NCBI GenBank assembly: GCA_945834475.1 | Contig: CAMAHK010000021.1 | Location: forward strand, 1-32,287 | DNA length: 32,287 bases | Direction: 5' to 3' | DNA from: an uncultured Verrucomicrobiota bacterium | GTDB taxonomy: Bacteria; Verrucomicrobiota; Kiritimatiellia; RFP12; UBA1067 | Shown here: piece by piece, positions 97 through 19,083 of the stretch | How the letters are laid out: each line of letters starts with the position of its first letter | Numbering within the stretch: the stretch's first letter is position 1 | The notes under the pieces: generated by a model | What the model was told of the DNA's origin: nothing | Database searches by the model: none | The model's input: only the letters and a program-made list of their open reading frames with translations | Translations under genes and position numbers: made by a program

Positions 97-900
97 GTGC
101 CGAAGGTCCTCGTCTTCAACGGCTGGGCGGCCGGTCCCGAAGCGTGGCTCTTAACCACGTTCCCGCGGGACTGGACGTTCAGCTACATCGAAGAGTTGGA
201 TGGACTGCCTGAATGGGTGATGGAAGATTCCGACGAGGTGATCCTCGTCGGATTTTCCATGGGTGGTTCGATGGCGCTGGGAACTTATCTCAAATATCCC
301 GAGAAGGTGAAGGGAATGGTGCTCGTTTCCGCGACGCCCTGCATGCTCGAGAAGAAGTCCGAAGGCTGGGCGGGCATGAGCGAGCGGCGCTTCCGTGCCT
401 TCGCGGCGGGTGTCGAGCTGATGTTTGGCGAAGATCCCGCGCCCTGGTACGAGCCGAAGCAGCTCGCGCGCGGACTCGAGTATCTGCTGAAGACGGATTT
501 GCGGAAGGACTTGGAGGGGTTGCTGGGAGACGCCGCGGGCGAGACGCACCGCGGTACGAAGCCAGTCCCGTGCCGCGGTACGAAGCCAGTCCCGTGCCGC
601 GGTGCGATGCCAGCCCCGTGCCGCGGTGCGATGCCAGCCCCGTACCGCGGTGCGTCCTCGCCCGCGGCGTCTCCAAGTAACCTTTCCTCCATCCCCGTTC
701 ATATTTTCCATTCGACGCGCGACGGGGTGGTGCGGCCGCAAAACGCGGCGTATCTGAAGTCGCTCTTCCCTCAGGCGAAGGTGACGATGGTCGAGGGCGC
801 CGAGCACGTGCTACCGGTGACGATACCCGAGCAGATCGACGCGGCGGTCAATGAGATCCTAGATGGGCTAGAGTCGCTAGAAGGACAAGATTGGTTATGA
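97..900 (+). CDS. alpha/beta hydrolase, BioH-like, with in-frame repeat insertion
   Basis: This is a small alpha/beta-hydrolase. The start is taken as GTG at 97 (PKVLVFNGWAAG), because the upstream ATG/GTG codons lie inside the preceding gene. A nucleophile elbow GFSMGG places the serine near residue 54. The acid is probably the Asp of HSTRDGVV (about 207) and the base the His of GAEHVLP (about 237), so the catalytic triad looks complete. The N-terminal NGW plus this arrangement resembles BioH, the pimeloyl-ACP methyl ester esterase of biotin synthesis, but no bio genes are nearby and the substrate is unknown. Residues about 144-194 are a Pro/Arg/Gly-rich insertion encoded by a palindromic repeat with a 24-bp tandem core (526-677). 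It lies between the lid helices and the strand carrying the catalytic Asp, so it probably forms an exposed loop. The stop overlaps the next ATG by four bases. Confidence 0.8.
   Translation: MPKVLVFNGWAAGPEAWLLTTFPRDWTFSYIEELDGLPEWVMEDSDEVILVGFSMGGSMALGTYLKYPEKVKGMVLVSATPCMLEKKSEGWAGMSERRFRAFAAGVELMFGEDPAPWYEPKQLARGLEYLLKTDLRKDLEGLLGDAAGETHRGTKPVPCRGTKPVPCRGAMPAPCRGAMPAPYRGASSPAASPSNLSSIPVHIFHSTRDGVVRPQNAAYLKSLFPQAKVTMVEGAEHVLPVTIPEQIDAAVNEILDGLESLEGQDWL
526..677. repeat. Palindromic element copy, inverted arms around a tandem core
   Basis: The left arm (526-558, GGAGACGCCGCGGGCGAG...) and right arm (641-677) are near-perfect reverse complements, differing by a one-base indel. Between them lie four 24-bp units. 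The whole element is translated in frame inside the BioH-like hydrolase. Related copies occur at 3108, 3794, 3960, 4317 and 18515. Confidence 0.85.
559..654 (+). repeat. Four tandem 24-bp units
   Basis: The units start at 559, 583, 607 and 631. Each has the form AAGCCAGTCCCGTGCCGCGG plus TACG or TGCG, with the last two starting ATGCCAGCCCC. They encode the octapeptide repeat KPVPCRGT / MPAPCRGA. The end of each unit (CCGCGGTACG) matches the tip of the flanking arm, which suggests the array grew by duplication of the arm end. Confidence 0.9.
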
Positions 901-2102
901 AACTCGAAAACGTTTACATGCTGTTGCCCGGCCGCAAGGTCGGCTTCGGATCGATTGAGATTGAAGGTGGCAAGATCGCCACAATCAAGGCAGAAACCGC
1001 CAAAGTCAACCTCAACCTCCAACCTCAACCTCGTCTTGTCCTCCCCGGGCTGGTCAATTGTCATGGGCATACGCCGATGACGCTGACGCGCGGACTCGGG
1101 GGTGGGTTGCCGCTGCAGCGGTGGTTGGAGGAGGCGATCTTTCCGGTTGAGGCGAAGATGACGCCGGCCGACGTCAAGGCCGGCGCGGTCTGGGGTATTG
1201 CCGAGATGCTGGCGGGCGGCACGACGAAGGTCGTCGACATGTACGACTTTCCGGCGGAGACCGAGACGGCGCTCGCCGAGGCGGGAATGAAGGGACATGT
1301 CTGCCGCGTCGGGCTCTGGTTTGTTCCGGGACGTCTCGACGAGTGCATCGCGTTTACGCGCGAGCATCCGAACGCGCATATCTGCGTCCACAGCGAATAT
1401 CTCACGAACGAGGAATTCTGCCGGGGACTCGCCGTGGCGAACAACGCGGAGCTGAAGCGCCCGATCCACGTGCATGTTTCCGAGACGGAGAAGGAACACC
1501 GCGAATGCCTTGAGCGCCACGGCAAGACGCCGATTGCATATCTCGCCGATACGGGACTTCTCGACCAAGGCGGTTTTGCCGCGCACTGCGTCTACTGCAC
1601 CGACGAGGATTTCAAGATCATGGCCGAGAAGAAGGTCGTCTTGGTTCACAATCCGACGAGCAACATGAAGCTCGGCAGCGGTTTCGCGCGCATTCCGCGG
1701 GCGCTCGAGCTGGGCGTCTCCGTCGCGCTTGGCACGGACGGCTGCGCGTCGAACGACAACCTCGACATGTTTGAGGAAATGCATCTCGCCTCGCTGATTC
1801 ACAAAGGGCTCGCGAAGGATCCGACGGTGCTGACGCCGTGGGACATCATCGAGATGGCGACATTCGGCAACGAGATCAAGGTCGGGGCACCGGCCGATCT
1901 CTGCGTTGTTGACCTCGACCGCCTGCACCTGACGCCGTGCCTCGACATCCCGAACCTCGTTGTTCATTCGATGCACGCGAGCGACGTCGTCCAGACGATC
2001 ATCGACGGCAAGGTCGTCTACGACCACGGCACGTTCCCGACGATCGACATGGCGAAGGCGAAGGCTGACTTCCTGTCGGCTGTGAAGAGGATCGGCCTGT
2101 GA
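897..2102 (+). CDS. mtaD: MTA/SAH deaminase-type amidohydrolase
   Basis: This is a metal-dependent amidohydrolase of the S-adenosylhomocysteine / 5'-methylthioadenosine deaminase group. Visible motifs are the metal pair HGH in LPGLVNCHGH (about residue 60), HVHVSETEKE with a third ligand His and catalytic Glu, the later His in FAAHCVY, and the Asp in LGTDGCASND. ATG at 897 overlaps the preceding stop; an in-frame TTG six bases upstream is less likely. The enzyme would deaminate MTA or SAH to the inosyl form in methyl-cycle salvage, which suits the next gene, an MTA/SAH nucleosidase joined by a GTGA overlap. Two oddities are visible. Around 1006-1033 a run of CAACCT units encodes NLNLQPQP just before the LVLPG strand. 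Near 1857-1890 the usual stretch between MAT.NGA and the ADL motif is shortened to MATFGNEIKVGAPADL, about a dozen residues fewer than I expect. Confidence 0.85.
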   Translation: MKLENVYMLLPGRKVGFGSIEIEGGKIATIKAETAKVNLNLQPQPRLVLPGLVNCHGHTPMTLTRGLGGGLPLQRWLEEAIFPVEAKMTPADVKAGAVWGIAEMLAGGTTKVVDMYDFPAETETALAEAGMKGHVCRVGLWFVPGRLDECIAFTREHPNAHICVHSEYLTNEEFCRGLAVANNAELKRPIHVHVSETEKEHRECLERHGKTPIAYLADTGLLDQGGFAAHCVYCTDEDFKIMAEKKVVLVHNPTSNMKLGSGFARIPRALELGVSVALGTDGCASNDNLDMFEEMHLASLIHKGLAKDPTVLTPWDIIEMATFGNEIKVGAPADLCVVDLDRLHLTPCLDIPNLVVHSMHASDVVQTIIDGKVVYDHGTFPTIDMAKAKADFLSAVKRIGL

Positions 2103-2728
2103 GAGCGTACGTGATTGCAATGGCGTCCGAGGCCAAGGCCGTTTATCCGGCCTTGCGCGAAGGAGACAGACTCTACATCTCGGGGATCGGCAAGGTCAAT
2201 GCCGCAATGGCGACGCAAAAGGCGATTGACGAAGGGGCGACGGAGATCGTCAATGCGGGTGTTTGCGGCGGATTTGATCCGTCGATGGAGATCGGCGACG
2301 TTTTTGAGGTTGTGCGCGCCGTGCAGTACGACTTTGACCTGTCAGATCTGAACCACACGCCTGTCGGCCAGCTTGACGAGCGGGAAAGTCCGTACTTTTG
2401 CTTGGAGACGCCTGTCGCCGAAGGCCGCGACGGTACGGTGCCTGACGGTGCGGTTCTGGGGACCGGCGATCATTTCCGCAATGGTGATGCCGACCTGCCG
2501 CTCCTGCGTTCGCTCGGCGTGACGCTCCGAGATATGGAGGGCGCGGCGGTGGCGCAGGTGTGCGAGAAGAATCACATTCCGTGTCGGCTCGTGAAGAGCG
2601 TCACGAACGTGCAGGGCAGGGGCTCGATGACGGGACAGTATGCCGACAACCTGGCGAAGGCGCTCGGCACGCTGACGAACTATTTGATGAACCATGAGAC
2701 GGATCGTGACGTTAGAAAGGACGTATGA
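2099..2728 (+). CDS. 5'-methylthioadenosine/S-adenosylhomocysteine nucleosidase-like protein
   Basis: This is a nucleoside phosphorylase-fold protein (PNP/UDP family) of 209 residues. Family signs are the N-terminal VIAMASEAKAV, the glycine-rich SGIGKVNAAMAT, NAGVCGGFDPSMEIGDV, and DMEGAAVAQVCEKNHIP, where the Met-Glu pair is expected to bind the ribose. The Asp normally following the ...VKSVTN segment as SD is not obvious here, so the exact base specificity is open. It would cleave MTA/SAH or the deaminated product of the preceding amidohydrolase to a free base and thio-sugar in the cytosol. GTG at 2099 overlaps the preceding TGA. The gene ends in an ATGA overlap with the ExbB-like gene, so translation of 97-3105 looks coupled. 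Confidence 0.8.
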   Translation: MRAYVIAMASEAKAVYPALREGDRLYISGIGKVNAAMATQKAIDEGATEIVNAGVCGGFDPSMEIGDVFEVVRAVQYDFDLSDLNHTPVGQLDERESPYFCLETPVAEGRDGTVPDGAVLGTGDHFRNGDADLPLLRSLGVTLRDMEGAAVAQVCEKNHIPCRLVKSVTNVQGRGSMTGQYADNLAKALGTLTNYLMNHETDRDVRKDV

Positions 2729-3105
2729 GCCAAGCTTTTCTCCAACTCAAAGAGATATTCCTTTCCGGCGGTCCGGTCATGTGGCCGATCCTGGCGCTTT
2801 CGGTCGTCGGGCTTGCGGTCTTGCTGTGGAAGGCGTGTGAATTCCGTGCGGGACGCAAGAATGCGCGAGGCCTCGGATTCGTTTCGACGATCATCACTGC
2901 CGAGCCGATGCTGGGCATTCTTGGCACGGTGACTGGCATTATGCAGACGTTTCGCGCACTCAATGCCGCGGACGGCGTTGCGAATCCGATGGCGGCGACG
3001 GCCGGCATCGGCGAGGCCTTGATTACGACGGCGGCGGGCCTCATCGCCGCGCTGATCCTTCTTTTCCCCTACAACGCCCTCGCCAGCGCCATCGACGAGG
3101 ACTGA
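2725..3105 (+). CDS. Short MotA/TolQ/ExbB-family proton channel protein
   Basis: The 126-residue membrane protein has one hydrophobic segment at about 17-37 (PVMWPILALSVVGLAVLLW). After only about 14 linker residues it continues with the conserved ExbB core EPMLGILGTVTGIMQTF and a C-terminal membrane segment (IGEALITTAAGLIAALILLFPYN). The final segments carry the channel signature of ExbB/TolQ. The large cytoplasmic domain normally found between the first and second membrane segments (roughly 100 residues) is missing. It is followed by exbD and tonB, so a proton-driven energiser of outer-membrane transport is the likely role. The ATG overlaps the preceding stop (ATGA). A repeat element separates it from exbD. 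Confidence 0.8.
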   Translation: MSQAFLQLKEIFLSGGPVMWPILALSVVGLAVLLWKACEFRAGRKNARGLGFVSTIITAEPMLGILGTVTGIMQTFRALNAADGVANPMAATAGIGEALITTAAGLIAALILLFPYNALASAIDED

Positions 3106-3107
3106 TC

Positions 3108-3174
3108 CGTACCGCCGTGCGCCCTCGCCCGAACAGCCGAACGAAGTGAGACAGCCGAAGGCAGCGTCTCCAAG
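3108..3174. repeat. Palindromic element copy, interrupted, between exbB and exbD
   Basis: CGTACCGCCGTGCGCCCTCG (3108 on) and GCAGCGTCTCCAAG (3161-3174) match the two ends of the right-arm form of the element seen at 641-677. About 30 bases (GAACAGCCGAACGAAG...) are inserted between them. It fills nearly the whole gap between two genes that are usually adjacent. Confidence 0.65.
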
Positions 3175-3178
3175 CCTG

Positions 3179-3565
3179 ATGAAGAAAGCTCCTAAAGTCC
3201 GCCTCGAGATGACGTCCCTGATGGACGTCATGTTCCTTGTCCTCGTCTTCTTCATCTACTGCATTTTTGACATGACCGTTCACAAGGGCGTCAAGGTTGA
3301 CCTGCCGACGGCGCCGGGCGCGCTGGAGAAGGGCGAGACGATCGTCATCACGATTCGGTCCAACAACACCTTGCAGTTCAACGGACAGGACATGGCGCGC
3401 GATGAGATCGTCTCGCGTGTGCGCGAGCTTTACGCTGTGAAGATGAAGCTTCCTGTGCTCGTGGCCGGCGACCGACGTTCCGAACTCGGCCTCGGCATTG
3501 AGCTGTTGAGCGAGCTCAAGCAGGTCGGCGTCGAGAAGATTTCGTTTCAGGTGGTTGGTGGTTAG
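3179..3565 (+). CDS. exbD: ExbD/TolR-family biopolymer transport protein
   Basis: ExbD/TolR proteins are single-span inner-membrane partners of ExbB, carrying the proton-translocating Asp in the membrane helix and a periplasmic domain. Here MTSLMDVMFLVLVFFIYCIF (about residues 10-29) gives the expected Asp at the start of the helix. The rest, with KVDLPTAPGA and VLVAGDRRSELG, matches the periplasmic part; about 128 residues is normal. ATG at 3179 is preferred. An in-frame GTG at 3146 would add 11 residues encoded by the upstream repeat element. The last codons (VVGG) and the stop are part of a 7-bp tandem array starting at 3551, so the array has replaced or extended the native C-terminus. Confidence 0.85.
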   Translation: MKKAPKVRLEMTSLMDVMFLVLVFFIYCIFDMTVHKGVKVDLPTAPGALEKGETIVITIRSNNTLQFNGQDMARDEIVSRVRELYAVKMKLPVLVAGDRRSELGLGIELLSELKQVGVEKISFQVVGG

Positions 3566-3620
3566 TTGTTGGTTGTTGGCTGTTAGTTGTTGGTTGTCGG
3601 TAGTCGGTTGTCGGTAGTCG
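3551..3620 (+). repeat. Ten tandem 7-bp units (GTTGTTG type) at exbD-tonB junction
   Basis: The array divides exactly into ten heptamers: GTGGTTG, GTGGTTA, GTTGTTG twice, GCTGTTA, GTTGTTG, GTTGTCG, GTAGTCG, GTTGTCG, GTAGTCG. It starts within the exbD coding end, supplies its TAG stop, and finishes at the base before the tonB ATG (3621). Similar units flank 7594-7676. Confidence 0.9.
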
Positions 3621-4310
3621 ATGCTTAAAATCTTCCAGTTTCTAATTGCTTCAGCTTTGATCCACGCGGCGCTTGCGGCGGGGGTCGTCTGGTGCTTGGC
3701 GGTCGGTTCGGGACCGAAGGTGCTGGCGACACTGGATCTTTCGAGCGTCGAACTGTCGTTTGCCGAGGAAGAACGAGAGGTAGCGCCCAACACCGTACCG
3801 ACCGTGTCCTCACGGCCCGGCGCTAACCAAGCGGTCTCCAAGGCTGTGCCGGTGCCGTCCGTGGAGATGCCGCGTGCGGATGATGGTGTCGCCGTACCCC
3901 CGACGCCACCGACGCCCGAGATTGCGTCCCGGGAACCGCAACTGGAGAAGATGGAACTTGTCGACGCCGCGGGCGAGGACGCGCCGCGGTACGATGCCGC
4001 GCCGTCGGTGCCGGCCGCCGCCCCGCGGCAGGCGCATGTCGATGCACCGCCACGTCCGCAACGGGTGATCCGTCCGGACTATCCGCGTGCGGCCCGGCAG
4101 CGCGGCGAGCAGGGGGACGTGGTGCTGGAAATTGACGTGGCGGCCGATGGCTCGGTCGCGTCGGTTGCCGTGGCAACGTCGAGCGGCTTTGCCGACCTTG
4201 ACGCGGCGGCCCTGAAAGCGGTAAAAGCGGCTCGCTTCAGTCCCGCGAAGTCGGGCGACCGTGCGGTCGCCTCGCACGCGCGGCTGACGCTTTCGTTCAA
4301 GTTGAAGTAG
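3621..4310 (+). CDS. tonB: TonB-family protein
   Basis: The 229-residue protein has an N-terminal membrane anchor (about residues 4-28), a Pro/Ala-rich periplasmic linker (about 60-145) and a C-terminal TonB domain. The domain shows the classic order RPDYPRAARQRGEQGDVVLEIDVAADGSV followed by DLDAAALKAVKAARFSPA, here named in pieces only to mark the motif. TonB transmits energy from ExbB/ExbD to outer-membrane receptors, and the order exbB-exbD-tonB agrees. The linker contains a translated repeat element (3960-3993, VDAAGEDAPRY) and probably a degraded opposite-strand copy (3794-3842). The start codon follows immediately after the heptamer array with no recognisable Shine-Dalgarno sequence. 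Confidence 0.85.
   Translation: MLKIFQFLIASALIHAALAAGVVWCLAVGSGPKVLATLDLSSVELSFAEEEREVAPNTVPTVSSRPGANQAVSKAVPVPSVEMPRADDGVAVPPTPPTPEIASREPQLEKMELVDAAGEDAPRYDAAPSVPAAAPRQAHVDAPPRPQRVIRPDYPRAARQRGEQGDVVLEIDVAADGSVASVAVATSSGFADLDAAALKAVKAARFSPAKSGDRAVASHARLTLSFKLK
3794..3842. repeat. Degraded palindromic element copy in tonB linker
   Basis: CGTACCG..CGTGTCCTC..GCCCGGCG, then an 11-base interruption, then GTCTCCAAG follows the right-arm form of the element with several mismatches. It is translated within the TonB linker. Confidence 0.4.
3960..3993. repeat. Palindromic element copy in tonB linker, in frame
   Basis: GTCGACGCCGCGGGCGAGGA followed by CGCGCCGCGGTACG matches the arm at 526-558 closely. 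It is translated as VDAAGEDAPRY, parallel to GDAAGETHRGT in the BioH-like protein. Confidence 0.75.
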
Positions 4311-4316
4311 TAAAAC

Positions 4317-4344
4317 CATACCGCGAGCCGTCTCGGCCGCGGCG
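4317..4344. repeat. Palindromic element copy upstream of the cyclase-like gene
   Basis: CCATACCGCGAGCCGTCTCG followed by GCCGCGGCG is nearly identical to 18515-18543. It lies in the short gap after tonB, just before the GAGGAG ribosome binding site of the next gene. Confidence 0.6.
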
Positions 4345-4360
4345 CATCCGAGGAGAAAAA

Positions 4361-5401
4361 ATGACATCAATTCTTTTGGCGACAATTTTGGGGCTTGAAG
4401 CCGCCGTGACGAACGGGGTCAGTTTCTTGCTTTCGCAGCAGGCGTCGGACGGCCATTGGAGCGATCCGCAGATGCCGGCCCTGACGGCGCTTCCGCTTTG
4501 GGCCCTCGCCGCGAACGAGCCAACCCTCCGCCATTCTTCATTCCTCATTCCTCATTCCGTGCTGACAAACGCGGCAGCGTTTGTCCTGTCGACTCAGCGT
4601 GAGGACGGCGGTTTTTACGTGCCGAAACCGGGACGCGGCGGTTCGGGCCTCGGCAACTACAATACGTCCGTGTGCCTTTCGGCGCTCTTCGATTCGGGAC
4701 TCGCGCCGGCCGGTGCGCTTCTCAAGGCGCGCACCTACATCGCGTCCTCCCAGCTCGTTGGCGATGACACGATGGCCGGAGGCTTTGGCTACGACAAGAT
4801 TTCGCGGCGGCGTTATGCCGATCTCTCCAACACGTCTTACGCGATGAGCGCGATGGCAAAGACGGCGTCCCTTGAGGAGCTGCGCACGTCGGGAAAGAAG
4901 GCCGATCTCGACTGGGACAAGGCGATAGCCTTTGTCGAGAACCTGATGAAGAAGGAGGGGCCCGACGCCGGAGGCGCCGCGTACAACGAGCGGACGCCTC
5001 AGGCGGGGACGGTTACGAACGGCCAGGGGCGCGTTCATCTGCGCGCATACGGGTCGATGACGTACGCGGCAGTTCTCTCGATGTGCTCGGCGAAGCTGAC
5101 GAAGGGGGATCCGCGTGTGCGCCAGTCACTCGAGTACCTGACGAAGAACTGGTCCGTCGAGGAGAATCCCGGAATGGGCAACCAGGGCCTTTACTACTTC
5201 TACGACATCATGGCGCGCGCCCTGGCGGCAGCGGAAGTCGACGACGTCGGCGGACACCGCTGGAAGGAAGAACTGGCCGCGCGGCTTGTCGCCCTCCAGA
5301 AGCCCGATGGCAGCTGGTCGAACGACAACAACCGCTTTTGGGAGGCGGATCCCGTCCTCTGCACGTCCTTCGCCCTGCTCGTGCTCGGCCTGTGCCGCTA
5401 G
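4361..5401 (+). CDS. Prenyltransferase/squalene-oxidase-repeat (alpha-alpha toroid) protein
   Basis: The 346-residue protein is built of repeats like those of terpene cyclases and protein prenyltransferases, with QW-like motifs: GVSFLLSQQASDGHW (about 22-36), FVLSTQREDGGF, and LVALQKPDGSWSNDN near the C-terminus. No DXDD catalytic motif of squalene cyclases is visible, so a structural or binding role in the cell envelope is more likely than cyclisation. The start has a GAGGAG binding site seven bases upstream. The first residues (TSILLATILGLEAAV) could act as a short signal sequence. It directly follows tonB and is probably in the same operon. A run of four ATTCCTC-type heptamers (4533-4560) encodes SSFLIPHSV inside the first repeat. 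Confidence 0.75.
   Translation: MTSILLATILGLEAAVTNGVSFLLSQQASDGHWSDPQMPALTALPLWALAANEPTLRHSSFLIPHSVLTNAAAFVLSTQREDGGFYVPKPGRGGSGLGNYNTSVCLSALFDSGLAPAGALLKARTYIASSQLVGDDTMAGGFGYDKISRRRYADLSNTSYAMSAMAKTASLEELRTSGKKADLDWDKAIAFVENLMKKEGPDAGGAAYNERTPQAGTVTNGQGRVHLRAYGSMTYAAVLSMCSAKLTKGDPRVRQSLEYLTKNWSVEENPGMGNQGLYYFYDIMARALAAAEVDDVGGHRWKEELAARLVALQKPDGSWSNDNNRFWEADPVLCTSFALLVLGLCR
4533..4560 (+). repeat. Four tandem 7-bp units (ATTCCTC type) inside a gene
   Basis: The units are ATTCTTC, ATTCCTC, ATTCCTC and ATTCCGT, translated in frame within the toroid protein. The same 7-bp period occurs in the arrays at 3551 and 7560, with a different sequence. Confidence 0.85.
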
Positions 5402-5488
5402 CGGCGTCCGGCCTCTCTCCTCTGCCCAGTTTCTTATTCCACAACGCATTCTGTTGCTGGCACTGTGTTTATGTATTCAATGGGTTGA

Positions 5489-5910
5489 AAATGTTGCCCC
5501 TTTGAGGTTCAGGTTATCAAAACGAAGAGGATGTTTTGGGAAAGATAGAGGCATTGCATCACGAGCATTACCGTCCTGAGTCGAAACGAGCACCGAAGAG
5601 ATTTTCTCGGCATTATTATGACATCTACCGGATGTATAAGGCCGGTGTCTTTGAGACGGCGAGGAAAGATCCTGATCTGTTGAAGGATATCGTAGACTTT
5701 ACCGCAAAGTTCTATCCCCGCAGTTGGGCGCATTTCGAGTTGTGCAAGCCGGGGACGATGCTGCTTCAACCCTCTGAACATGCGCTCCCGATCATGCGGG
5801 CCGACTACCAGGCCATGCGTCAGATGATTTACGGTGACTATCCGTCTTTCGACGAACTCCTTGAAACCCTCAAGGAACTTGAGTCTGATGTGAACTCACT
5901 TGCCGAGTAA
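5489..5910 (+). pseudogene. AbiEii-type nucleotidyltransferase toxin, C-terminal remnant with frameshift
   Basis: AbiEii proteins are nucleotidyltransferase toxins of AbiE toxin-antitoxin/abortive-infection systems. Only the C-terminal part is present. From about 5545, frame 1 reads KIEALHHEHYRPE...RHYYDIYRM and continues to FDELLETLKELE, all typical of the family. The preceding residues FEVQVIKTKRMFWE lie in frame 2 (from 5489), which joins frame 1 at GGGAAAGATAG if one A is restored, giving the conserved FWEKIEALH. Both the frameshift and the absence of the N-terminal catalytic domain point to decay. No AbiEi antitoxin is visible. Base composition is lower in GC than the neighbours, consistent with acquired DNA. 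Confidence 0.75.
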
Positions 5911-6077
5911 CCGCCAACGACGTAACCTCGCCCGCGGCGGATTGGGCGCGGATGGGTTGTCGGCTGGCATGGCGGCCGCTGGGCGTGAAGTTTTATGCCG
6001 TGGAAGGGTAATTGTGTAGCGCATGGATACCGTGAAATCTCGCCCGCATGTCCGCCTGATTTGAAATAATATTTGCA

Positions 6078-6326
6078 ATGAGCGAAGAGGCCAAGATTGC
6101 TTTTGTTGCGTTTTGCGTCGAGTCATATAAGTCCGCTAAGAATCTTGGCGGTGAGGGTGTCTCGTCGTTGTTCTCTCGTTTGGGTGTGGATCGTTATCTG
6201 TACGAAGAATACGAGGTGTTGCACACGATGGGGATAGATGCGGTTCTTGCCGACATTGATCGTTATCTGGAAGTGCCGGGCGCAGTTTCCATGATTCTGC
6301 CAGGCACAATCGTGGAAGCCCGCTAG
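6078..6326 (+). CDS. DUF3791 domain protein
   Basis: This small 82-residue protein matches the DUF3791 pattern: FVAFCVESYKSAKNLGGEGV, SLFSRLGVDRYLYEEYEVLHTMG, and a final DIDRYL. Family members are often found beside DUF3990 genes and are suspected of a toxin-antitoxin-like role, but no partner is visible. ATG at 6078 has no clear ribosome binding site. The 167 bases upstream hold no gene I can recognise, only a 13-base fragment of the palindromic element near 5931. Together with the AbiEii remnant this is a small accessory patch between housekeeping genes. Confidence 0.7.
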   Translation: MSEEAKIAFVAFCVESYKSAKNLGGEGVSSLFSRLGVDRYLYEEYEVLHTMGIDAVLADIDRYLEVPGAVSMILPGTIVEAR

Positions 6327-6338
6327 CGGCGGATTTTG

Positions 6339-6347
6339 TGGTATAAT
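6339..6347 (+). promoter_or_regulatory. Extended -10 promoter for serA
   Basis: TGGTATAAT matches the extended -10 consensus TGnTATAAT. No good -35 is visible. It lies about 45 bases upstream of the serA ATG. Confidence 0.65.
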
Positions 6348-6392
6348 ACGGGCATAAGTATTCCACTGATAAACTCTACGGAAGAAAAGAAA

Positions 6393-7559
6393 ATGAACTA
6401 CAAGTATCACTGCCTCAATCCGATCGCGGAGTGCGGCCTCAAGAATCTGGGCGACAACTACGCCCGTACCGAAAACTTCGACGAAGCGAACGCCGTCTTC
6501 GTCCGCAGCGCCAAGATGGACGAGATGGTCCCCGGCGCGAATCTCTACGCCATTGCGCGCGCCGGCGCTGGCGTCAACAACATTCCCCATGCGGAATACG
6601 CGAAGAAGGGGGTCGTCGTCTTCAATACGCCTGGCGCGAATGCGAACGGCGTGAAGGAACTTGTCATTGCGGCGATGCTGCTCGCGAGCCGCGACATCGT
6701 CGGCGGCGTCGAGTGGGTCAAGACGAATGTCGCCGATCCTGCAATCGCGAAGTCGGCCGAGAAGGCGAAGAAGCAGTTTGCCGGCACGGAGATCATGGGC
6801 AAGAAGCTCGGTGTCATCGGTCTCGGCGCGATCGGCCAGAAGATCGCGAACGCGGCAATCGACCTTGGCATGGATGTCCTCGGCTACGATCCGTATCTTT
6901 CCGTCGAGGCGGCGCTCCGCCTTTCCAACCATGTGACGGTTTGCAAGAATGTCGAGGCAATTTACCGCGAGTGCGACATCATCACGGTGCACGTCCCCGC
7001 GCTTGACTCGACGAAGGGCATGATCAACGCCGACGCGATCGGCCTTATGAAGACGGGCGTCATCGTCATCAACGCGGCGCGCGACGTGCTCGTGAACGAG
7101 AAGGACATGCTCGCGGCGCTCGAGGCGGGCAAGGTGCGCAAGTACGTTTCCGACTTCCCGAATGCGACGACGGCCGGACAGAAGGGCTGTCTCGTCATCC
7201 CGCACCTCGGTGCGTCGACCGAAGAATCCGAGGACAACTGCGCGATCATGGCGGTCAAGGAGATGCGCGACTTCCTTGAGAACGGCAACATCGTCAACTC
7301 GGTGAACTATCCGGCTTGCTCGCTGGGCATCGCCAACAAGGCGGGGCGCCTGGCGATCTGCCACAAGAACGTCGCGAACATGATCGGCACATTCACGTCG
7401 ATCCTCGGCAACGCGAAGGTCAACATCGATGCGATCGCGAACAAGAGCCGCGGCGACTTCGCCTATACGCTCATCGACACCGACTCGCTGATTCCGGCCG
7501 ATGTCGTCAAGTCGCTCGAGGCGAGCGACGCCGTCATCCGTGTGCGCGTGGTGAAGTGA
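6393..7559 (+). CDS. serA: D-3-phosphoglycerate dehydrogenase
   Basis: This enzyme oxidises 3-phosphoglycerate to 3-phosphohydroxypyruvate, the first step of serine synthesis. The 388-residue protein has a split substrate domain, a Rossmann NAD domain with GLGAIGQ (about residues 148-154), the catalytic Arg in NAARDVLVNE, and the His in VIPHLGAST. A C-terminal ACT domain begins near residue 310 (ICHKNVANMIGTFTSILG), probably for serine feedback. ATG at 6393 is chosen over upstream in-frame codons, since those lie in the promoter leader. Its promoter is at 6339-6347. A 7-bp repeat array starts at the base after its stop codon. Confidence 0.9.
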   Translation: MNYKYHCLNPIAECGLKNLGDNYARTENFDEANAVFVRSAKMDEMVPGANLYAIARAGAGVNNIPHAEYAKKGVVVFNTPGANANGVKELVIAAMLLASRDIVGGVEWVKTNVADPAIAKSAEKAKKQFAGTEIMGKKLGVIGLGAIGQKIANAAIDLGMDVLGYDPYLSVEAALRLSNHVTVCKNVEAIYRECDIITVHVPALDSTKGMINADAIGLMKTGVIVINAARDVLVNEKDMLAALEAGKVRKYVSDFPNATTAGQKGCLVIPHLGASTEESEDNCAIMAVKEMRDFLENGNIVNSVNYPACSLGIANKAGRLAICHKNVANMIGTFTSILGNAKVNIDAIANKSRGDFAYTLIDTDSLIPADVVKSLEASDAVIRVRVVK

Positions 7560-7594
7560 GTTGTTGGTTGCCGGCTGTTAGTTGTTGGTTATGG
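7560..7594 (+). repeat. Five tandem 7-bp units after serA
   Basis: The units are GTTGTTG, GTTGCCG, GCTGTTA, GTTGTTG and GTTATGG. The order GCTGTTA-GTTGTTG is shared with the array at 3551-3620. It begins at the base directly after the serA stop. Confidence 0.85.
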
Positions 7595-7675
7595 GATACG
7601 CAAAACGAAATTCAAGTTCGTCTGGTGCGAACAGGGCTTCTGCGCCCGCTCGCGTCACCCCTGTTTCCGCTGTCG

Positions 7676-7710
7676 CCAAACCAGCAACCAGCAACCGACA
7701 ACCAACAACC
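7676..7710 (-). repeat. Five tandem 7-bp units, inverted relative to 7560-7594
   Basis: CCAAACC, AGCAACC, AGCAACC, GACAACC and AACAACC are heptamers that read GGTTGTT, GGTTGTC, GGTTGCT and so on from the opposite strand. With 7560-7594 they form inverted flanks around about 80 bases that contain an AACAGGG/CCCTGTT stem (7630-7667). Confidence 0.85.
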
Positions 7711-7737
7711 AAATCGGGCTCTGGCACGATTTGGTCG

Positions 7738-8805: not shown

Positions 8806-8809
8806 CCGC

Positions 8810-10983: not shown

Positions 10984-10989
10984 TATAAT
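10981..10989 (+). promoter_or_regulatory. Extended -10 promoter of the ABC/Gld-like operon
   Basis: TGATATAAT fits TGnTATAAT exactly and lies 36 bases before the ATP-binding gene. Its TGA is also the stop codon of the preceding gene. No -35 match is evident. Confidence 0.7.
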
Positions 10990-11025
10990 ATACGCGCAAT
11001 TTTAAACATAAACATAAACGAAACT

Positions 11026-11739
11026 ATGCTAGAAGTCAAAAATCTGAAGAAGAGCTTCGGCGATTTCGAAGCGGTGAAGGGGATTTCCTTCACCGTATCG
11101 AAGGGCGAGGTTCTCGGCTTTCTCGGGCCGAACGGCGCGGGCAAGTCGACCACGATGCGCATGATCACGGGCTTTCTCCCGCCTACGTCCGGCACGGCCG
11201 TCATCTGCGGCAAGGACATTTCTATTGAGCCGGTCGCGGCGAAGGCCCATCTCGGCTATCTGCCGGAGTCCGCGCCGAGCTACAAGGCGATGACGGTGAA
11301 GGACTATCTCACATTCGTCGCCGAGATCCGCGGTTTCGCGGGCAAGGCCGGTGCCGACAAGGTCGACGCGGTCATCGTCAAGGCAAAGCTTGAGAAGGTC
11401 GTCAACCAGACGATCGAGACGCTCTCGAAGGGCTACCGTCAGCGCACCGCGTTCGCGGCGGCGATTCTGCACGATCCCGACGTCCTCATCATGGACGAGC
11501 CGACGGACGGCCTCGACCCGAACCAGAAGTTCGCGGTCCGCGAGATGATCAAGGAGATGTCGGCCGATAAGGCGATCATCATCTCGACCCATATTCTCGA
11601 GGAAGTGGATGCCGTGTGCAACAAGGTGATCGTGATTGCCGATGGCGAGAAGAAGTTCGATGGTACGCCCGCCGAACTCGCCGCGCTCGATCCGAGCGGG
11701 AAGATCGATGTTGTGTTTAGAAATCTGACTATGAAGTAA
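11026..11739 (+). CDS. ABC transporter ATP-binding protein, GldA-like
   Basis: The 237-residue ATPase has Walker A GPNGAGKST (residues 34-42), the signature LSKGYRQR (133-140), Walker B VLIMDEP (153-159), D-loop DGLDP and H-loop IISTH. The signature LSKGYRQR instead of LSGGQ is typical of the GldA/ABC-2 exporter group. It would energise the permease-auxiliary fusion encoded two bases downstream. The ATG has no clear binding site; the leader is A-rich. Confidence 0.9.
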   Translation: MLEVKNLKKSFGDFEAVKGISFTVSKGEVLGFLGPNGAGKSTTMRMITGFLPPTSGTAVICGKDISIEPVAAKAHLGYLPESAPSYKAMTVKDYLTFVAEIRGFAGKAGADKVDAVIVKAKLEKVVNQTIETLSKGYRQRTAFAAAILHDPDVLIMDEPTDGLDPNQKFAVREMIKEMSADKAIIISTHILEEVDAVCNKVIVIADGEKKFDGTPAELAALDPSGKIDVVFRNLTMK

Positions 11740-11741
11740 TC

Positions 11742-14327: not shown

Positions 14328-14355
14328 GGTTTAGAAGAAAGGTGTAGGTGTAGAA

Positions 14356-15117
14356 ATGACGAATAAGAATTTGATTACTCTCGCCGCGACGGCCGTTGTG
14401 CTGGGCGCTGCGGCGTATCTCGCGACTTCCACGACCTCGACGAAGCGCTCGCCGCGTCTTAACGGCACGACGGTCCTCCCGAATCTGGATGTCTCGGCCG
14501 TCGCTTCGGTTGAGTTCGGCGACAAGCTGAAACTCGCGTCGGGTGCCAACGGCTGGACGGCCGCGACGTACCACAACTATCCGGTCGACCGCTCGAAGGT
14601 CGTCGACGCGCTCCTGAAGCTTTCCGAACTCAAGGTCGGTCAGGTCGTCCGCGGCAAGACGGTTGAATCGCCGACGAACCTCGTCCTCCGCGACGGCGAG
14701 GGACAGGAGCTCGCGGCGCTGCCGCTCGGCGACAAGCACGCCAAGTGGGGCCACGGCCGTTACGCGACGGTGAAGGGCGAGACGGTGCTCGTCTCCGACA
14801 CGCTCGACGCGTTCGACGGGGATGGCAAGAGTTTCGTCGAGACGAAGATCGTCGATACGCCGTATATCTCGTTCAACGACGTCGTTGAGGGACTCTCCGA
14901 GGAGGAGCTCGGCTTTGCGACGGGTGTCGTCGCGAAGGTGACGATCGGCGGCGACACGAACCGCACGGTCACGGTCGGCAACAAGGTCAAGGACGGCAGT
15001 GACCGTTACCTCAAGCTCGACCAGGGCGATTGGGTCTACAAGGTCTCGTCCTATTCGGTTGATTCGCTTCTCCCGAAGCCGCCGCCGACCAAGGAGCCTG
15101 CCGAGGAGAAAAAGTAA
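14356..15117 (+). CDS. DUF4340 domain protein
   Basis: The 253-residue protein has an N-terminal anchor (LITLAATAVVLGAAAYLAT) and a periplasmic region with the DUF4340 pattern: LPNLDVSAVASVEFGDKLKL, VDALLKLSELKVGQVVRGK, and LDQGDWVYKVSSYSVDSLL near the end. DUF4340 genes regularly follow GldF-GldG-type genes, as here. It is thought to be a partner of that export complex. The C-terminus is a Pro/Lys/Glu tail. The leader repeats GGTGTA twice. Confidence 0.85.
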   Translation: MTNKNLITLAATAVVLGAAAYLATSTTSTKRSPRLNGTTVLPNLDVSAVASVEFGDKLKLASGANGWTAATYHNYPVDRSKVVDALLKLSELKVGQVVRGKTVESPTNLVLRDGEGQELAALPLGDKHAKWGHGRYATVKGETVLVSDTLDAFDGDGKSFVETKIVDTPYISFNDVVEGLSEEELGFATGVVAKVTIGGDTNRTVTVGNKVKDGSDRYLKLDQGDWVYKVSSYSVDSLLPKPPPTKEPAEEKK

Positions 15118-15165
15118 GAGTCCACGGAAGAGCCCAAGGCCGAATAACCCCAAGGAGATAGGATT

Positions 15166-15861
15166 ATGGCAGAACTTATAGTTGCGCTTGACGTCAACAC
15201 GCGCGAAGAGGCCGTCTCGAAAGTCAAGGCGATCGGCGAGAGCGTGGACTTCTACAAGATCGGTCTCGAGCTTTTCACAGCGGAAGGTCCGGACGTCGTC
15301 AAGGCGGTGAAAGATCTCGGCAAGCGGGTCTTTCTTGACCTCAAGTTCCACGACATTCCGCGCACGGTTGAGCGTGCGGTCAAGTCAGGCGGCAAGCTCG
15401 GCGTTGACCTGATGACGATACATTCCGTCGGTGGCAAGGCGATGATCCAAGCGGCGGCGCAGGCCGCAGCCGAGTTCGGTGCTGCCGCGCCGAAGATCCT
15501 GGCGGTCACGGTGCTCACCTCGCTTGACCAGACCGATCTTGAGGACGTCGGCATCAAGGGGCGTACGCCGGTCGAACAGGTCGAGGCGATGGCGAAGTTC
15601 GCGATCGAGAACGGGGCGAACGGTCTGGTCTGCTCGCCGAAGGAAGTCGGTAACCTTTCGAAGCTCCTGAAGGCGGGTACGCTCTTCATCACGCCGGGGG
15701 TGCGTCCCGCGGGCGCAGCGGTCGGCGATCAGAAACGCGTCGCGACACCGGCGGATGCCGTCCGTGACGGCGCGACCCACCTCGTCGTCGGGCGTCCGAT
15801 TCTTGCGGCGGAAGATCCCGTCGCGGCGGCGAAGGCGATTCGCGCGGAGATGAACATCTGA
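15166..15861 (+). CDS. pyrF: Orotidine 5'-phosphate decarboxylase
   Basis: This cytosolic enzyme makes UMP from OMP, the last step of de novo pyrimidine synthesis. The 231-residue TIM barrel shows the catalytic DLKFHDIPRTV (about 58-68, Asp-x-Lys-x-x-x-Asp), LTSLDQTDL, and the phosphate-binding FITPGVRPAG and LVVGRPI. AAGGAGA lies seven bases before the ATG. The stop shares a base with the ATG of the next gene. Confidence 0.95.
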   Translation: MAELIVALDVNTREEAVSKVKAIGESVDFYKIGLELFTAEGPDVVKAVKDLGKRVFLDLKFHDIPRTVERAVKSGGKLGVDLMTIHSVGGKAMIQAAAQAAAEFGAAAPKILAVTVLTSLDQTDLEDVGIKGRTPVEQVEAMAKFAIENGANGLVCSPKEVGNLSKLLKAGTLFITPGVRPAGAAVGDQKRVATPADAVRDGATHLVVGRPILAAEDPVAAAKAIRAEMNI

Positions 15862-17213
15862 TGCGGCGCGTGGCCTGCCTGGCGCTCCTCTTCGGGGCGC
15901 TTGTCACCTGGGCCGACGAACCGATTTCGGATGTCGAGGTCTGGAACGAAGGCGTCGGATATTACGACGCCGGGGACGTAACAAACGCCTTGCGCGTGTT
16001 GCGTCCCTTGATGCTTTCGAAGACCCATGGGGGCCGTGCGGCGGAAGTCGTCGCGAAGCTTGAGCACGAGCGCGGCAATCGCGAGGAGGCCGCGAACGCC
16101 GCGCAGCTCGCGTTGCGGGCGAATCCGACGGACCCGAAAGCGAACCGTAATTTCACGCGGGCGACGGATCGTTTGCTCGAAGAGCGCGAACAGAAGCGCC
16201 TGGAGGCAATCCTCAAGGGCGCACAGGGCAAGGATCCGGGCGCGCTCCTGAAGGCGGCGACGGAGGACGCACGACGGCTTTTCACGGATTCGGGTACGTA
16301 TCGGACGAATGCCGCGCCGAAGGCGGTGGTGCTCGCTGACGCGTATGAGAAACGAGCGCGGAAGCTGGCGGACGCGTGGGTTCCGGTACGGGAGGTGATT
16401 GCGCAGTCCGTCACCAACGAGCAGCAGGCGGCGACGATCATCGCGCAGCTCGATCAGGCCGCAGCTGCGACGAAGAAGGCGGCGAAGGAACTCGGCGACC
16501 TCGATGGCAACGCATATGCGAGTCTGAGTCAGGTCGAACACGATTTTACGCGCTTTCTGAAGCTGACGATTCTGCCGCCGCAGGCGATGGATGAAGATCT
16601 CATCGCGCAGTCCAACGCATGGCAGGATGTCGAGGTTTTTAATACGCGTCCCTGGCAGCCGGAGGCGCTCGATTATACGCGGGCATTTCGCGCGAAGTTC
16701 CCGATGTGGGCACGGGCTTACGAGCAGCAGGCGCAGTCCGACACGAACAAGCCGCCGTTCACGGCCGAAGCCCAGGCGAAGGTCTCGGCGTTGGCGACGG
16801 AGCTGGAGAAGATTCAGCTCGAATGTTGCGAGAAGAACCTGCCGCCCGAGCAGGAAAAGGCGATTGCCATCATCAACGAAATCCGCGAGCTTCTGCCGAA
16901 AGATAACTCGGGGCAGGGTCAGGGTCAAGGCCAAGGTCAGGGTCAAGGGCAAGAGCAGGAGCCGCAGTCGCAAGATTCCCAGGAGGATCAGGAGTCCCGG
17001 GAGTCGCAGTCGTCTCAGGAGTCCCAGCAGGAAAATCCCGAACAGGAGCCCGAGGATACGCCTGTCGCCGAGGACGGCGACGGTACGGAGAAGGAGGATC
17101 CTGAGCTTGAGGCAATTCTGAAGAAGGCGCAAGAGCGCAATGACGAACACGAGGCGGACAAGAAGGCGCGGATGCGCAAGGCGCCGCTCCCGCCGAATGA
17201 AAGGGATTGGTGA
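15861..17213 (+). CDS. TPR protein with Gln-rich tail, BatC/BatE-like
   Basis: The 450-residue protein has a signal peptide (ACLALLFGALVTWA), then TPR-like helices (WNEGVGYYDAGDVTNALRVL and ANAAQLALRANPTDPKANRN), a long helical middle, and a low-complexity tail with seven Gly-Gln pairs (from 16912) and many Gln/Glu/Ser. The end LEAILKKAQERND...PLPPNERDW resembles the C-terminus of BatC-type proteins of aerotolerance operons, though the other bat genes are absent here. Probably periplasmic or envelope-associated. ATG at 15861 overlaps the pyrF stop. Confidence 0.7.
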   Translation: MRRVACLALLFGALVTWADEPISDVEVWNEGVGYYDAGDVTNALRVLRPLMLSKTHGGRAAEVVAKLEHERGNREEAANAAQLALRANPTDPKANRNFTRATDRLLEEREQKRLEAILKGAQGKDPGALLKAATEDARRLFTDSGTYRTNAAPKAVVLADAYEKRARKLADAWVPVREVIAQSVTNEQQAATIIAQLDQAAAATKKAAKELGDLDGNAYASLSQVEHDFTRFLKLTILPPQAMDEDLIAQSNAWQDVEVFNTRPWQPEALDYTRAFRAKFPMWARAYEQQAQSDTNKPPFTAEAQAKVSALATELEKIQLECCEKNLPPEQEKAIAIINEIRELLPKDNSGQGQGQGQGQGQGQEQEPQSQDSQEDQESRESQSSQESQQENPEQEPEDTPVAEDGDGTEKEDPELEAILKKAQERNDEHEADKKARMRKAPLPPNERDW

Positions 17214-17251
17214 TTGCGATGAAGAATTTAGGTGAAGGTTAAGGACGAAAG

Positions 17252-18313
17252 ATGAAAATTGTTGTTGCCTGCGGGGGCACGGGGGGGCATGCCTTCCCTG
17301 GGTTGGCTGTTGCGGAAGAACTGGTGCGGCGTGGACATGACGTCACGGTCTGGGACTCGGGACGCGACATCGAGTCATCGGTGATGAAACGCTGGAAGGG
17401 GGCCGTCTTCTCGACCGGTGCGCGTCAACTGTCAGCGAAGAATGCTTTTGCGATTCTCAGGTCGATCTTCCGCTGCCGGAAGGAGATGAAGCGTGCGAAG
17501 CCCGACGCCCTTCTCGCCATGGGCAGTTATTCGTCGCTGCCGCCGGTCCTCGCGGCGCGTCTCTGCGGCGTGCGCGTCTGTCTCCACGAGGCCAATACGG
17601 TGCCTGGCAAGGCGGTCGAGTTCCTTTCAAAGTTCGCGGAGACGGTGGCGATCAGTTTCGATGTGACAGCCAAGTATCTGCCCGAGGTGAAGACTGTTCG
17701 GACAGGACTCCCCGTGCGCGCGGACATCGCTTCCGGCAAGCGCTTCGACTTCATCCCTCCGAATGCGTTTGTCGTGATGATCACCGGCGGCTCCCAGGGT
17801 GCACACGCGGTCAACGAACTGTCGGCCGCGGCGGTGACGATGCTGAAGGACGATCTCTCGCGCCGCGAAGGGGCGCGTCCGCTCTACGTCATTCACCAGA
17901 CGGGCGTGGCGGACGAGGGACGTGTCATCGGCGAGTACACGCGCGCGCAGGTGCCGAGCCGTGTGCAGGCCTTTGAGCGCGAGATGGCGAATGCCTTCGC
18001 CTCGGCCGACATCGTAGTCGCGCGCGCCGGTGCCTCGACGTGCTTTGAGCTCGCGGCCTGCGGCAAGCCGGCGTTGCTCATTCCGCTCCCGTCGGCCGTA
18101 CGCGATCATCAGCACTTCAATGCTGAGGCGTTTGCCGCGAGCGGTGCCGCCGACGAGGGCATTCAGGTAAAGCTCTCCGTGCGCCAGGTCTATCGTTATC
18201 TCCTCAACCACTATGAAAATCCGTCCAAACTGGCGGCGATGTCCGAGAAGATGCGCACGCTGGCGACGCCTGATGCCGCGGCTCGCGTGGCGGATTTGCT
18301 GGAGGCGAAATGA
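17252..18313 (+). CDS. murG: UDP-N-acetylglucosamine transferase of peptidoglycan synthesis
   Basis: MurG transfers GlcNAc to lipid I to form lipid II at the inner face of the membrane. Visible motifs are GGTGGHAFPGLAVAEEL (residues 8-24), MGSYSSLPPVLAA, HEANTVPGKA, ITGGSQGAHAVNEL and the donor-binding ARAGASTCFELAACGKPALLIPLP...DHQHFNA. Length (353) is normal. AAGGA lies nine bases before ATG. Finding murG shows a peptidoglycan-making cell. The stop overlaps the next gene (ATGA). Confidence 0.95.
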   Translation: MKIVVACGGTGGHAFPGLAVAEELVRRGHDVTVWDSGRDIESSVMKRWKGAVFSTGARQLSAKNAFAILRSIFRCRKEMKRAKPDALLAMGSYSSLPPVLAARLCGVRVCLHEANTVPGKAVEFLSKFAETVAISFDVTAKYLPEVKTVRTGLPVRADIASGKRFDFIPPNAFVVMITGGSQGAHAVNELSAAAVTMLKDDLSRREGARPLYVIHQTGVADEGRVIGEYTRAQVPSRVQAFEREMANAFASADIVVARAGASTCFELAACGKPALLIPLPSAVRDHQHFNAEAFAASGAADEGIQVKLSVRQVYRYLLNHYENPSKLAAMSEKMRTLATPDAAARVADLLEAK

Positions 18314-19083
18314 AGGGCTGGTTTCTCGTTCCGTTGGCGGCGATCGTCGGACTGGTCGCGGGGTCCTGGGGGCCGCGTGCGGACTTGCGCCGCGTCAGGG
18401 AGGCCCAGCGTGAAGAGTCCGTGAAAGGCAAGGTCGCCGCGACGACGGGCTTCGACGCGTTCGCGAAGCTGACGAACATTCCGGACGTCGCGAAGCGGAA
18501 GCCGACGACGAACGCCGTACCGCGAGCCGTCTCGGCCGCGGCGGGTAAAAGCAAGTCGTCGCTGGGAGAGGCAGGGCTTGGAGACGCCGCGGGCGAGACG
18601 CACCGCGGTACGGAGGAGCTTGGAGACGCCGCGGATGAGACGCAGCGCGGTGCGGAGCGGACGGTCTTGCGCGAGGATCTTGGGGCGCGTCTTGAGCAGG
18701 CGGCTGAACTTTGGAACACGCGCGTGGCACTGGCGAAGGCGCAGTGGAAGGAGAAACTCTCGATTGCTGACGAGAAGACCTCCGCCGCGTTTGACGCCGC
18801 GCTCGGCGAGATGAATGAGCGGCTTCGCGATTCGATGGAGGCTCTGGCCGCCGAAATCGAGAAGGCGGAGAAGATGACGCCGGAACTCGGACTGCGGCTG
18901 ATGGGCGACGTCACGCGGACGATGGCCGAGACGTATGATTCGATCGGTGCGGCGCTGCCGGAAGATCGGCGCGGAGACGTTTCTGAAATGCCGGTCTTCG
19001 AGTTCATTGATCCGATGGTCGCCGAGCCGCTGATCAGTGTGCAGGACAAGCTGCAGGAGAGTCCGCGATGGTCGCGTCGCTGA
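18310..19083 (+). CDS. Membrane-anchored protein of unknown function with in-frame repeats
   Basis: The 257-residue protein begins with a membrane anchor (WFLVPLAAIVGLVAGSW) and is otherwise mostly charged helices, with a likely coiled coil at about 130-200. I do not recognise a family. Residues about 69-116 are encoded by three copies of the palindromic element: one inverted (18515-18543) and two tandem 42-bp units (from 18577 and 18619) giving LGDAAGETHRGTEE and LGDAADETQRGAER. ATG overlaps the murG stop, and its own end overlaps the next start by 16 bases. It sits before two ABC-transporter remnants, so it may have been an accessory of that transporter. Confidence 0.65.
   Translation: MKGWFLVPLAAIVGLVAGSWGPRADLRRVREAQREESVKGKVAATTGFDAFAKLTNIPDVAKRKPTTNAVPRAVSAAAGKSKSSLGEAGLGDAAGETHRGTEELGDAADETQRGAERTVLREDLGARLEQAAELWNTRVALAKAQWKEKLSIADEKTSAAFDAALGEMNERLRDSMEALAAEIEKAEKMTPELGLRLMGDVTRTMAETYDSIGAALPEDRRGDVSEMPVFEFIDPMVAEPLISVQDKLQESPRWSRR
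18515..18655. repeat. Palindromic element cluster, one inverted and two tandem copies
   Basis: CCGTACCGCGAGCCGTCTCG plus GCCGCGGCG (18515-18543) is in the opposite orientation to CTTGGAGACGCCGCGGGCGA... at 18577-18613, which repeats with four differences at 18619-18655 (42-bp period). All are translated in frame in the membrane-anchored protein. Confidence 0.85.

Follow-up and report, generated by a model that had tools for sequence, protein, structure and literature searches.

In a 32,287-nucleotide stretch of DNA from an uncultured Verrucomicrobiota bacterium (contig CAMAHK010000021.1 of assembly GCA_945834475.1; hereafter the window), copies of a short palindromic repeat, designated family 1, were found in both orientations within and between genes. 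Family 1 is very probably a repetitive extragenic palindrome (REP), that is, a non-autonomous mobile hairpin which is spread by a REP-associated tyrosine transposase (RAYT), is kept in tolerated loops and reading frames, and has coding sequence as its main habitat. The family is real, common and in frame. REP/RAYT systems of this kind are known; what is unusual in the present one is its tag and its residence mostly in coding sequence.

The window is contig C21 of the source genome (G000), a 2.57-Mb draft in 134 contigs with an estimated completeness of 85.5%. Among the best 80 of 567 matches, the nearest named relatives of its MutS protein were Kiritimatiellae, Verrucomicrobia and Lentisphaerae metagenome-assembled genomes (MAGs), many from ruminant gut, with identities of at most 79%. 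A 15-base core of family 1, with at most one mismatch, occurred at 126 places in the whole genome (70 + 56), against 2 (1 + 1) for the same pattern read backwards, which served as the chance control. The full 30/31-nt core was present in 40 exact copies, and the core matches listed were spread across many contigs. A profile made from those copies that match the 15-mer exactly (reporting level 8 bits) was applied to a sample of 410,563 nt, about 16% of the genome, consisting of contigs C1, C2, C3 and C5, the first 40 kb of C6, and the window. It returned 91 matches of at least 8 bits (control 2) and 85 of at least 10 bits (control 0); since the contigs were picked among large contigs with core matches, the copy density in this sample is biased upwards and no genome-wide total is given. 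These reversed controls ruled out a chance origin, and the absence of any excess over base composition, which an earlier note on this DNA had named as a result that would count against the family, was not what was found. A known Rfam RNA was likewise ruled out (0 Rfam matches). The exact core was absent from the 113 other family genomes compared (60 of the same genus and 53 others), from the genome_contigs collection, from which own or near records may have been left out, and from viral contigs.

The unit measures 38-40 nt. On the tag-first strand it reads CCGTA, a stem CCGCGG, a bulged T, GCG, a loop TCT or TCCT, CGC, CCGCGG and CG, followed by a variable end in which TCTCCAAGC and GGTAACAGC recur. 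Among the 86 copies reaching the tag, GTAC was found in 82, ATAC in 2 and GTAT in 1, with no tag in the remaining copy. All nine positions were paired around the one-base bulge in 74 of 85 tagged copies. Over 31 distinct forms, 257 of 279 cells were paired, compared with at most 248 in 500 arm shuffles, in a count for which bulge place and loop length were fitted per copy and which therefore leans towards pairing. Two-sided stem changes distinguished subfamilies (CCGCAG/CTGCGG, CCGTGG/CCACGG, CCGCCG/CGGCGG), and the bulged hairpin was returned by DNA folding for each of six sequences, which included one from the opposite strand (z -2.0 to -4.1). Neighbouring copies within 150 nt formed 15 tags-out, 7 tags-in and 11 tandem pairs, and 11 of the 15 tags-out pairs lay inside genes. 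Family 1 shares with REPs a short, high-copy hairpin (in REPs about 20-50 nt), copies flanking a RAYT gene, and inverted dimers (HH, TT). Bulged, tagged REPs are the substrates of the E. coli enzyme (PMC8266576). Both the REP anatomy and the in-frame insertion described below are well supported.

A RAYT gene encoding 222 amino acids (aa) with the HUH motif MPNHLHVIV was located at G000:C1:14095-14760. It had escaped the earlier note because it lies on a contig other than that of the window. The gene stands amid ten family 1 copies in both orientations, split three to seven between its two sides. Its only NCBIfam match was REP_Tyr_transpos (E 2.6e-16), so that an HUH motif and a family match coincide in one gene, at a score below the equivalog cut-off; no PDB match was significant, the best being 4er8 TnpArep (E 0.14).

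RAYT matches with E <=0.001, some of them weak, were detected in 34 of the 113 other family genomes. At 29 of 30 RAYT loci, 13-mers were repeated in at least one orientation and, judged by eye, mostly belonged to hairpins next to the RAYT; the remaining locus, a short fragment, showed none. Hairpin tags were read by eye for 26 RAYTs, including a second RAYT of G000, before the tree was seen. When these tags were placed on the RAYT tree, 7 changes sufficed, against a mean of 15.7 after shuffling (0 of 200 shuffles as low), and four GTA-type tags together with one CGTT tag formed a single group (98/92). Other hairpins flank relatives of the RAYT, and in the main their tags agree with the RAYT phylogeny.

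The ten places that the earlier note had listed in the window were largely recovered: eight were found by the profile at 8 bits or more, while those at 3794 and 5931 scored below 8 bits and were recognized by eye, the former also by folding. Its in-frame reading was confirmed in all three genes concerned. Profile-found copies other than those at 4316 and 18515 scored at least 14.7 bits. The copies and their host genes are as follows.

97-900, plus strand: alpha/beta hydrolase gene (Pfam Abhydrolase), with about 50 repeat-derived aa at aa ~142-195.
522-560, plus strand: REP copy, 30-nt form, tag at the right end, read in translation as GLLGDAAGETHRGTK (42.2 bits).
549-644, plus strand: 24-bp tandem repeat lying between copies one and two, an expansion of the CCGCGGTACG half-element (direct-repeat family D1).
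640-678, minus strand: REP copy, 31-nt form, inverted, read in the hydrolase gene as PYRGASSPAASPS (48.2 bits).
3106-3131, minus strand: truncated REP copy immediately past the stop of gene 2725-3105, outside predicted genes (14.7 bits).
3657-4310, plus strand: TonB-like gene with REP in its linker (Pfam TonB_C, E 1.1e-21).
3787-3822, minus strand: degraded, REP-like weak hairpin with the same GTA tag, read as NTVPTVSSRPGA (below 8 bits; by eye, folding and translation).
3956-3995, plus strand: REP copy, 31-nt form, read as ELVDAAGEDAPRYD (41.1 bits).
4316-4344, minus strand: REP copy of the GGCCGAG subfamily, intergenic, just past the TonB-like stop (8.8 bits; hairpin).
5926-5940, minus strand: half-element fragment outside predicted genes (sequence by eye; below 8 bits).
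18310-19083, plus strand: gene for a 257-aa protein without Pfam match, with three REP copies in the linker after an N-terminal hydrophobic segment.
18515-18543, minus strand: REP copy of the GGCCGAG subfamily, read as VPRAVSAAAG (9.1 bits).
18576-18614, plus strand: REP copy, 30-nt form, read as GLGDAAGETHRGTE (46.7 bits).
18618-18655, plus strand: tandem REP copy 42 nt downstream of the 18576 copy, tag lost, read as ELGDAADETQRGAE (26.0 bits).

Genes were predicted in the sample with an own hexamer model (303 genes). The count of genic and non-genic copies proposed in the earlier note gave 63 of 85 family 1 copies within predicted genes and 22 outside, ten of the latter being the cluster around the RAYT. 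Random 32-bp placements fell within genes in 89.7% of cases, which corresponds to a depletion from genes for all copies (63/85, p 4e-5) that was not significant with the RAYT cluster set aside (63/75, p 0.12). Away from that cluster, family 1 is thus not significantly rarer in genes than random placement. A mainly extragenic location, as expected of REPs, does not hold for family 1; it was taken as descriptive rather than defining, because intragenic REPs are on record (PMC3733652).

All six frames are open in both length forms of family 1. Use of these frames was far from uniform: sense copies followed one phase in 32 of 39 cases (25 of 29 with one copy per gene, p 1.8e-8), and inverted copies anchored at the tag did so in 16 of 22 (13 of 19). 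Inverted copies anchored at the other half were less uniform (14/24, p 0.03). The favoured readings were LGDAAGETHRGT and VPRCVSPAA, the other frames being richer in Arg. The frame bias was computed directly; its likeliest cause is that selection acts on the peptide, with codon phasing of the target sequence as a possible alternative. Freedom from stops was also seen in 869 of 2000 shuffled versions of family 1 and in 389 of 2000 for family 2, a second repeat family of the same genome, and is therefore unremarkable in itself.

Inserts were compared with orthologues from the same genus and, beyond the genus, with solved MutS and PanC chains. For the hydrolase, a genus-wide search matched 53 of 59 genomes including its own, and the best 29 others were aligned. 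Between two conserved anchors the hydrolase of the window has 72 aa, compared with 20-28 aa in all 29 orthologues, from which its ~50 repeat-derived residues are absent; one orthologue (L349) has the 5-mer AAGED outside the aligned insert segment. Segments in MutS (46 aa vs 27-44), PanC (51 vs 32-49) and TsaD (54 vs 32-56) were also set against 29 orthologues each, and the gain in length is modest, as these loops vary among orthologues. REP peptide motifs were found in 0 of 29 orthologues each for MutS, PanC, TsaD and TonB and in 0 of 11 for the 18310 protein. For the latter and for TonB, orthologues were about as long or longer, and most 18310 linkers were of similar length, so that in these two cases the REP took the place of linker sequence and did not clearly make the protein longer. 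Gaps counted in precisely the columns of the element (0/29, 7/29 and 0/29 orthologues) were a poor test, because other residues fill the same variable loop, and were replaced by motif absence and segment length. In an alignment with a solved bacterial MutS (7ai6), the REP peptide region stood opposite an 8-residue gap. In an AlphaFold2 model of TsaD, the insert stretch (residues 105-133) had pLDDT <50 and lay between two helices.

According to the earlier note, the same segments in orthologues from unrelated genera would have argued against an inserted repeat. Within the genus the orthologues lacked the segments, and other genera were represented by the solved MutS and PanC chains; a conserved protein segment was rejected, as the compared orthologues were without it. 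More broadly, the segments might be functional, either as conserved protein or as regulatory elements (transcription, supercoiling or RNA-stability sites) placed by selection and not mobile. Retention of a bulged, covarying hairpin with all pairs in 74 of 85 copies and the strong bias in frame use would both suit such elements, and other REPs are known to be targeted by gyrase and may have effects on RNA (PMC3733652). Family 1 copies, however, occur at unrelated places, in unrelated genes and in both orientations; their motifs are missing from the aligned MutS, PanC, TsaD, TonB and 18310 orthologues and from the hydrolase segment, and none of the 60 same-genus genomes holds an exact copy. A functional, non-mobile origin is accordingly improbable.

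The assignment of copies to genes was assessed by a flank test, in which both flanks scored best in the gene's own frame for 56 of 60 testable copies. Inserts of family 1 were present in 37 of the 303 predicted genes, of family 2 in 18, and of either family in 51. Pfam domains were detected in 28 of the 31 insert-bearing proteins scanned (of 37), and the host genes named from these domains include IspH-UppS, HydF, MutS, ArgS, PheT, FtsK, TsaD, PanC, Dxr and a Mur ligase. GC-rich, stop-free repeats could in principle extend spurious open reading frames (ORFs), or contigs could be contaminants, and the intragenic location would then be an artefact of gene prediction or of the MAG, for which the incompleteness and fragmentation of the draft and the self-made gene finder give some ground. 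Such an artefact is highly improbable in view of the agreement of both flanks, the Pfam-named hosts (MutS, FtsK, PheT, ArgS, TsaD, PanC, Dxr, HydF), the orthologues that align on both sides of the insert, and the spread of listed copies across many contigs.

These data are best explained by a mobile REP that spreads into genes. As single-stranded DNA, the REP would probably be recognized by the Y1/HUH transposase encoded at G000:C1:14095-14760, which would copy it around the genome, alone or as inverted dimers. Because all six frames are open, insertions that keep the host frame add 10-50 residues, as read from the sequences. Copies in flexible loops or linkers would be tolerated and retained, and selection on the inserted peptide would favour the LGDAAGETHRGT frame over two Arg-rich frames. 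From these sequence comparisons we infer translation in the cell, mobilization by the C1 RAYT and neutrality of the inserts.

Several observations weigh against this interpretation. The C1 RAYT reached 59.8 of the 80 bits set as the NCBIfam equivalog cut-off and, falling narrowly short, 20.7 of the 23 required by Pfam. On the RAYT tree, TGGAG tags were scattered without clustering, and CTGGG and GTGG tags required 4 and 3 changes, respectively. The tag of family 1 is GTAC, not GTAG. Four of the 60 copies failed the flank test, including two in one gene without Pfam match and the TonB copy at 3956, whose upstream flank did not score best in the gene's frame. Coding location depends on the own hexamer gene finder, with Pfam backing for 28 of 31 scanned genes. 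A predicted preference of the 30-nt form for genes failed (32/29 inside vs 11/11 outside, p 1.0). Insert loops of MutS, PanC and TsaD vary among orthologues, and one TsaD orthologue has a loop longer than the 54 aa found here; the overall quality of the TsaD model is moderate (mean pLDDT 69.8), with other stretches, including residues 9-37, also <50. Movement itself is deduced from a single genome of the species.

GTAG and CGTC REPs, REPtrons formed with RAYTs, and in-frame intragenic REPs were described in 2013 (PMC3733652). In that study most REPs are intergenic, and the genome richest in intragenic, in-frame GTAG REPs is that of the verrucomicrobium Opitutus terrae, whose GTAG-20 family mostly reads GTGG. 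The claim of the earlier note that no such family had been described in bacteria of the Planctomycetes-Verrucomicrobia-Chlamydiae (PVC) group was thus too strong: in-frame REPs, including those of O. terrae, and RAYT-REP pairs were already known. New here are family 1, its GTAC tag and its mostly coding habitat; neither family 1 nor a Kiritimatiellae REP in genes was among the literature matches listed, most subscription papers being outside their coverage. Family 1 resembles the GTAG REPtrons in its tagged hairpins of 20-40 nt, high copy number, inverted dimers, copies flanking a RAYT, some in-frame copies within genes and several families in one PVC genome. It differs in its GTAC tag, in the genic position of most sampled copies and in an exact core unmatched in the collections searched (PMC3733652). 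The tags admitted to the GTAG super-family of Di Nocera et al. (GTAG; GYAG, GYRG, GTRG, GTMG, GTGG) do not include the GTAC of 82 of 86 copies. GTA is common to both and the fourth base differs; family 1 therefore functions in the manner of a GTAG REP while falling outside the super-family. From the hairpins recognized by the group 2 (E. coli type) TnpA-REP (PMC8266576) it is set apart by its one-base bulge and GTAC tag. REPINs, inverted REP doublets tied to a RAYT, are similar in structure; in Pseudomonas they were defined in extragenic space (PMC3116915), unlike the tags-out pairs reported here, which are mostly genic.

The comparison with Rickettsia palindromic elements (RPEs) drawn in the earlier note was borne out as far as a palindromic family that inserts in genes without breaking them is concerned, both being selfish palindromes in frame within unrelated genes (PMC3767692, PMC10969869). 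The likeness is incomplete, the present element having REP anatomy (tag and bulged hairpin) and a neighbouring RAYT gene. In R. conorii, a review counts 44 RPE integrations, nearly half in ORFs (PMC3767692, PMC10969869); here, two REP families together occupy 51 of 303 predicted genes in the 16% sample. That family 1 is a true RPE, a protein-coding selfish repeat without a dedicated transposase, is scarcely credible, for although it inserts in frame in loops of many housekeeping genes with six open frames, it is a RAYT-associated element of 38-40 nt with a GTAC tag, and RPEs are 100-150 bp long (PMC3767692) or CGTC-tagged, the CGTC repeats being reported without a transposase (PMC3733652).

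Returning to the REP interpretation, family 2 provided a second case in the same genome. Its core CGACAAGAGTGTCG, typically within ACGCGACAAGAGTGTCGCGTCCCCGTTG, occurred at 103 places in G000, against 0 in the control, and 26 of the 28 copies in the sample lay in predicted genes. The second RAYT, at C17:31622-32185, has family 2 copies on both sides (G000:C17:31366-32817, L031), one of them in frame, by our own reading, in the adjoining MurD-like gene. A family 2 pair is also held by MutS (G000:C3:36345-38861), in a segment of 46 aa vs a median of 21.

A possible, though doubtful, extension is that these are coding-adapted REPs: a change from GTAG to GTAC removes the TAG stop from the tag, all six frames become readable, and genes become the main habitat. 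In relatives, copies were located by a mismatch scan and counted as genic only if wholly inside a gene. In G023, which has a GTAG-tagged family, none of the 14 copies distant from the RAYT was genic, in a sample that is 79% coding, compared with 63 of 75 for family 1 (p 1e-9); this contrast fits the idea that a TAG stop in the tag excludes REPs from coding sequence. Two other families do not support it: despite a tag stop in one frame, all three RAYT-distant copies of G034 lay in one gene, as did both of those in G053. The stop-free family of G038 had 2 of 2 such copies in one gene and G054 had 0 of 1; G011, G005, G018, G049 and G091 had no copy away from the RAYT. The compared genomes differ in much besides the tag stop, and the stop-codon idea is weakly sampled and partly contradicted. 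On these few contrasts, genes may have become accessible to family 1 once the TAG stop was lost.

Within the genus, a different, CTGGG-tagged hairpin was abundant in the RAYT-bearing genomes G052, G053 and G055 (18, 37 and 35 copies) and present in 10 copies in G100, in which no RAYT was found. G065 and G076 had one copy each, and 53 genomes had none, including five others of the same genus with RAYT matches. In the 30 loci fetched from the 102 places counted, 12 of 44 distinct copies lay in genes, some of these genic copies being the same site in two or three species. An inverted REP pair was observed in frame, apparently at the same place, in the GH2 beta-galactosidase of G052, G053 and G100 (L291, L302, L312; Pfam was run on L291 and L312, and G053 was judged from the matching peptide). 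Because the pair is common to the three genes, translated REP inserts may be retained for long, past speciation.

REPs are named as extragenic, yet two RAYT-linked families of one genome are mostly within predicted genes, and translated palindromes stand beside a plausible transposase, a situation not reported for the CGTC-tagged Rickettsia elements (PMC3733652). Should the coding-adapted model hold, a stop codon in the tag would decide whether a REP family can live in genes, nature would in effect have carried out insertion scanning of MutS, FtsK, TsaD and further core proteins in such genomes, REP content would be set by protein tolerance and not by intergenic space, the RAYT-REP pair would be a standing source of new protein loops, and two stop-free families would decorate about one-sixth of the predicted proteins of the sample.

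Some further observations concern individual copies. The predicted IspH-UppS fusion gene at G000:C1:98739-100448 contains five REP copies at aa 142-211, one of them inverted and the other four in tandem; LytB of Pfam matched it in two stretches, the best at aa 2-129, and the repeats seem to split the LytB part. In the TsaD orthologue of G054 (L186), the loop that carries the insert in G000 holds an unrelated repetitive insert (GLGSRVSGLG...NPKPETR), and this loop is possibly a shared insertion hot spot. Three family 1 copies (window 3106-3131, G000:C1:2659 and G000:C3:13330) end at the same second-arm point, into CCGAAC, and perhaps constitute a separate composite element. Degenerate GTTGGTTGTTGG-type repeats in both orientations, which belong to another repeat class, occur in the window at 3540-3628 and 7556-7712.

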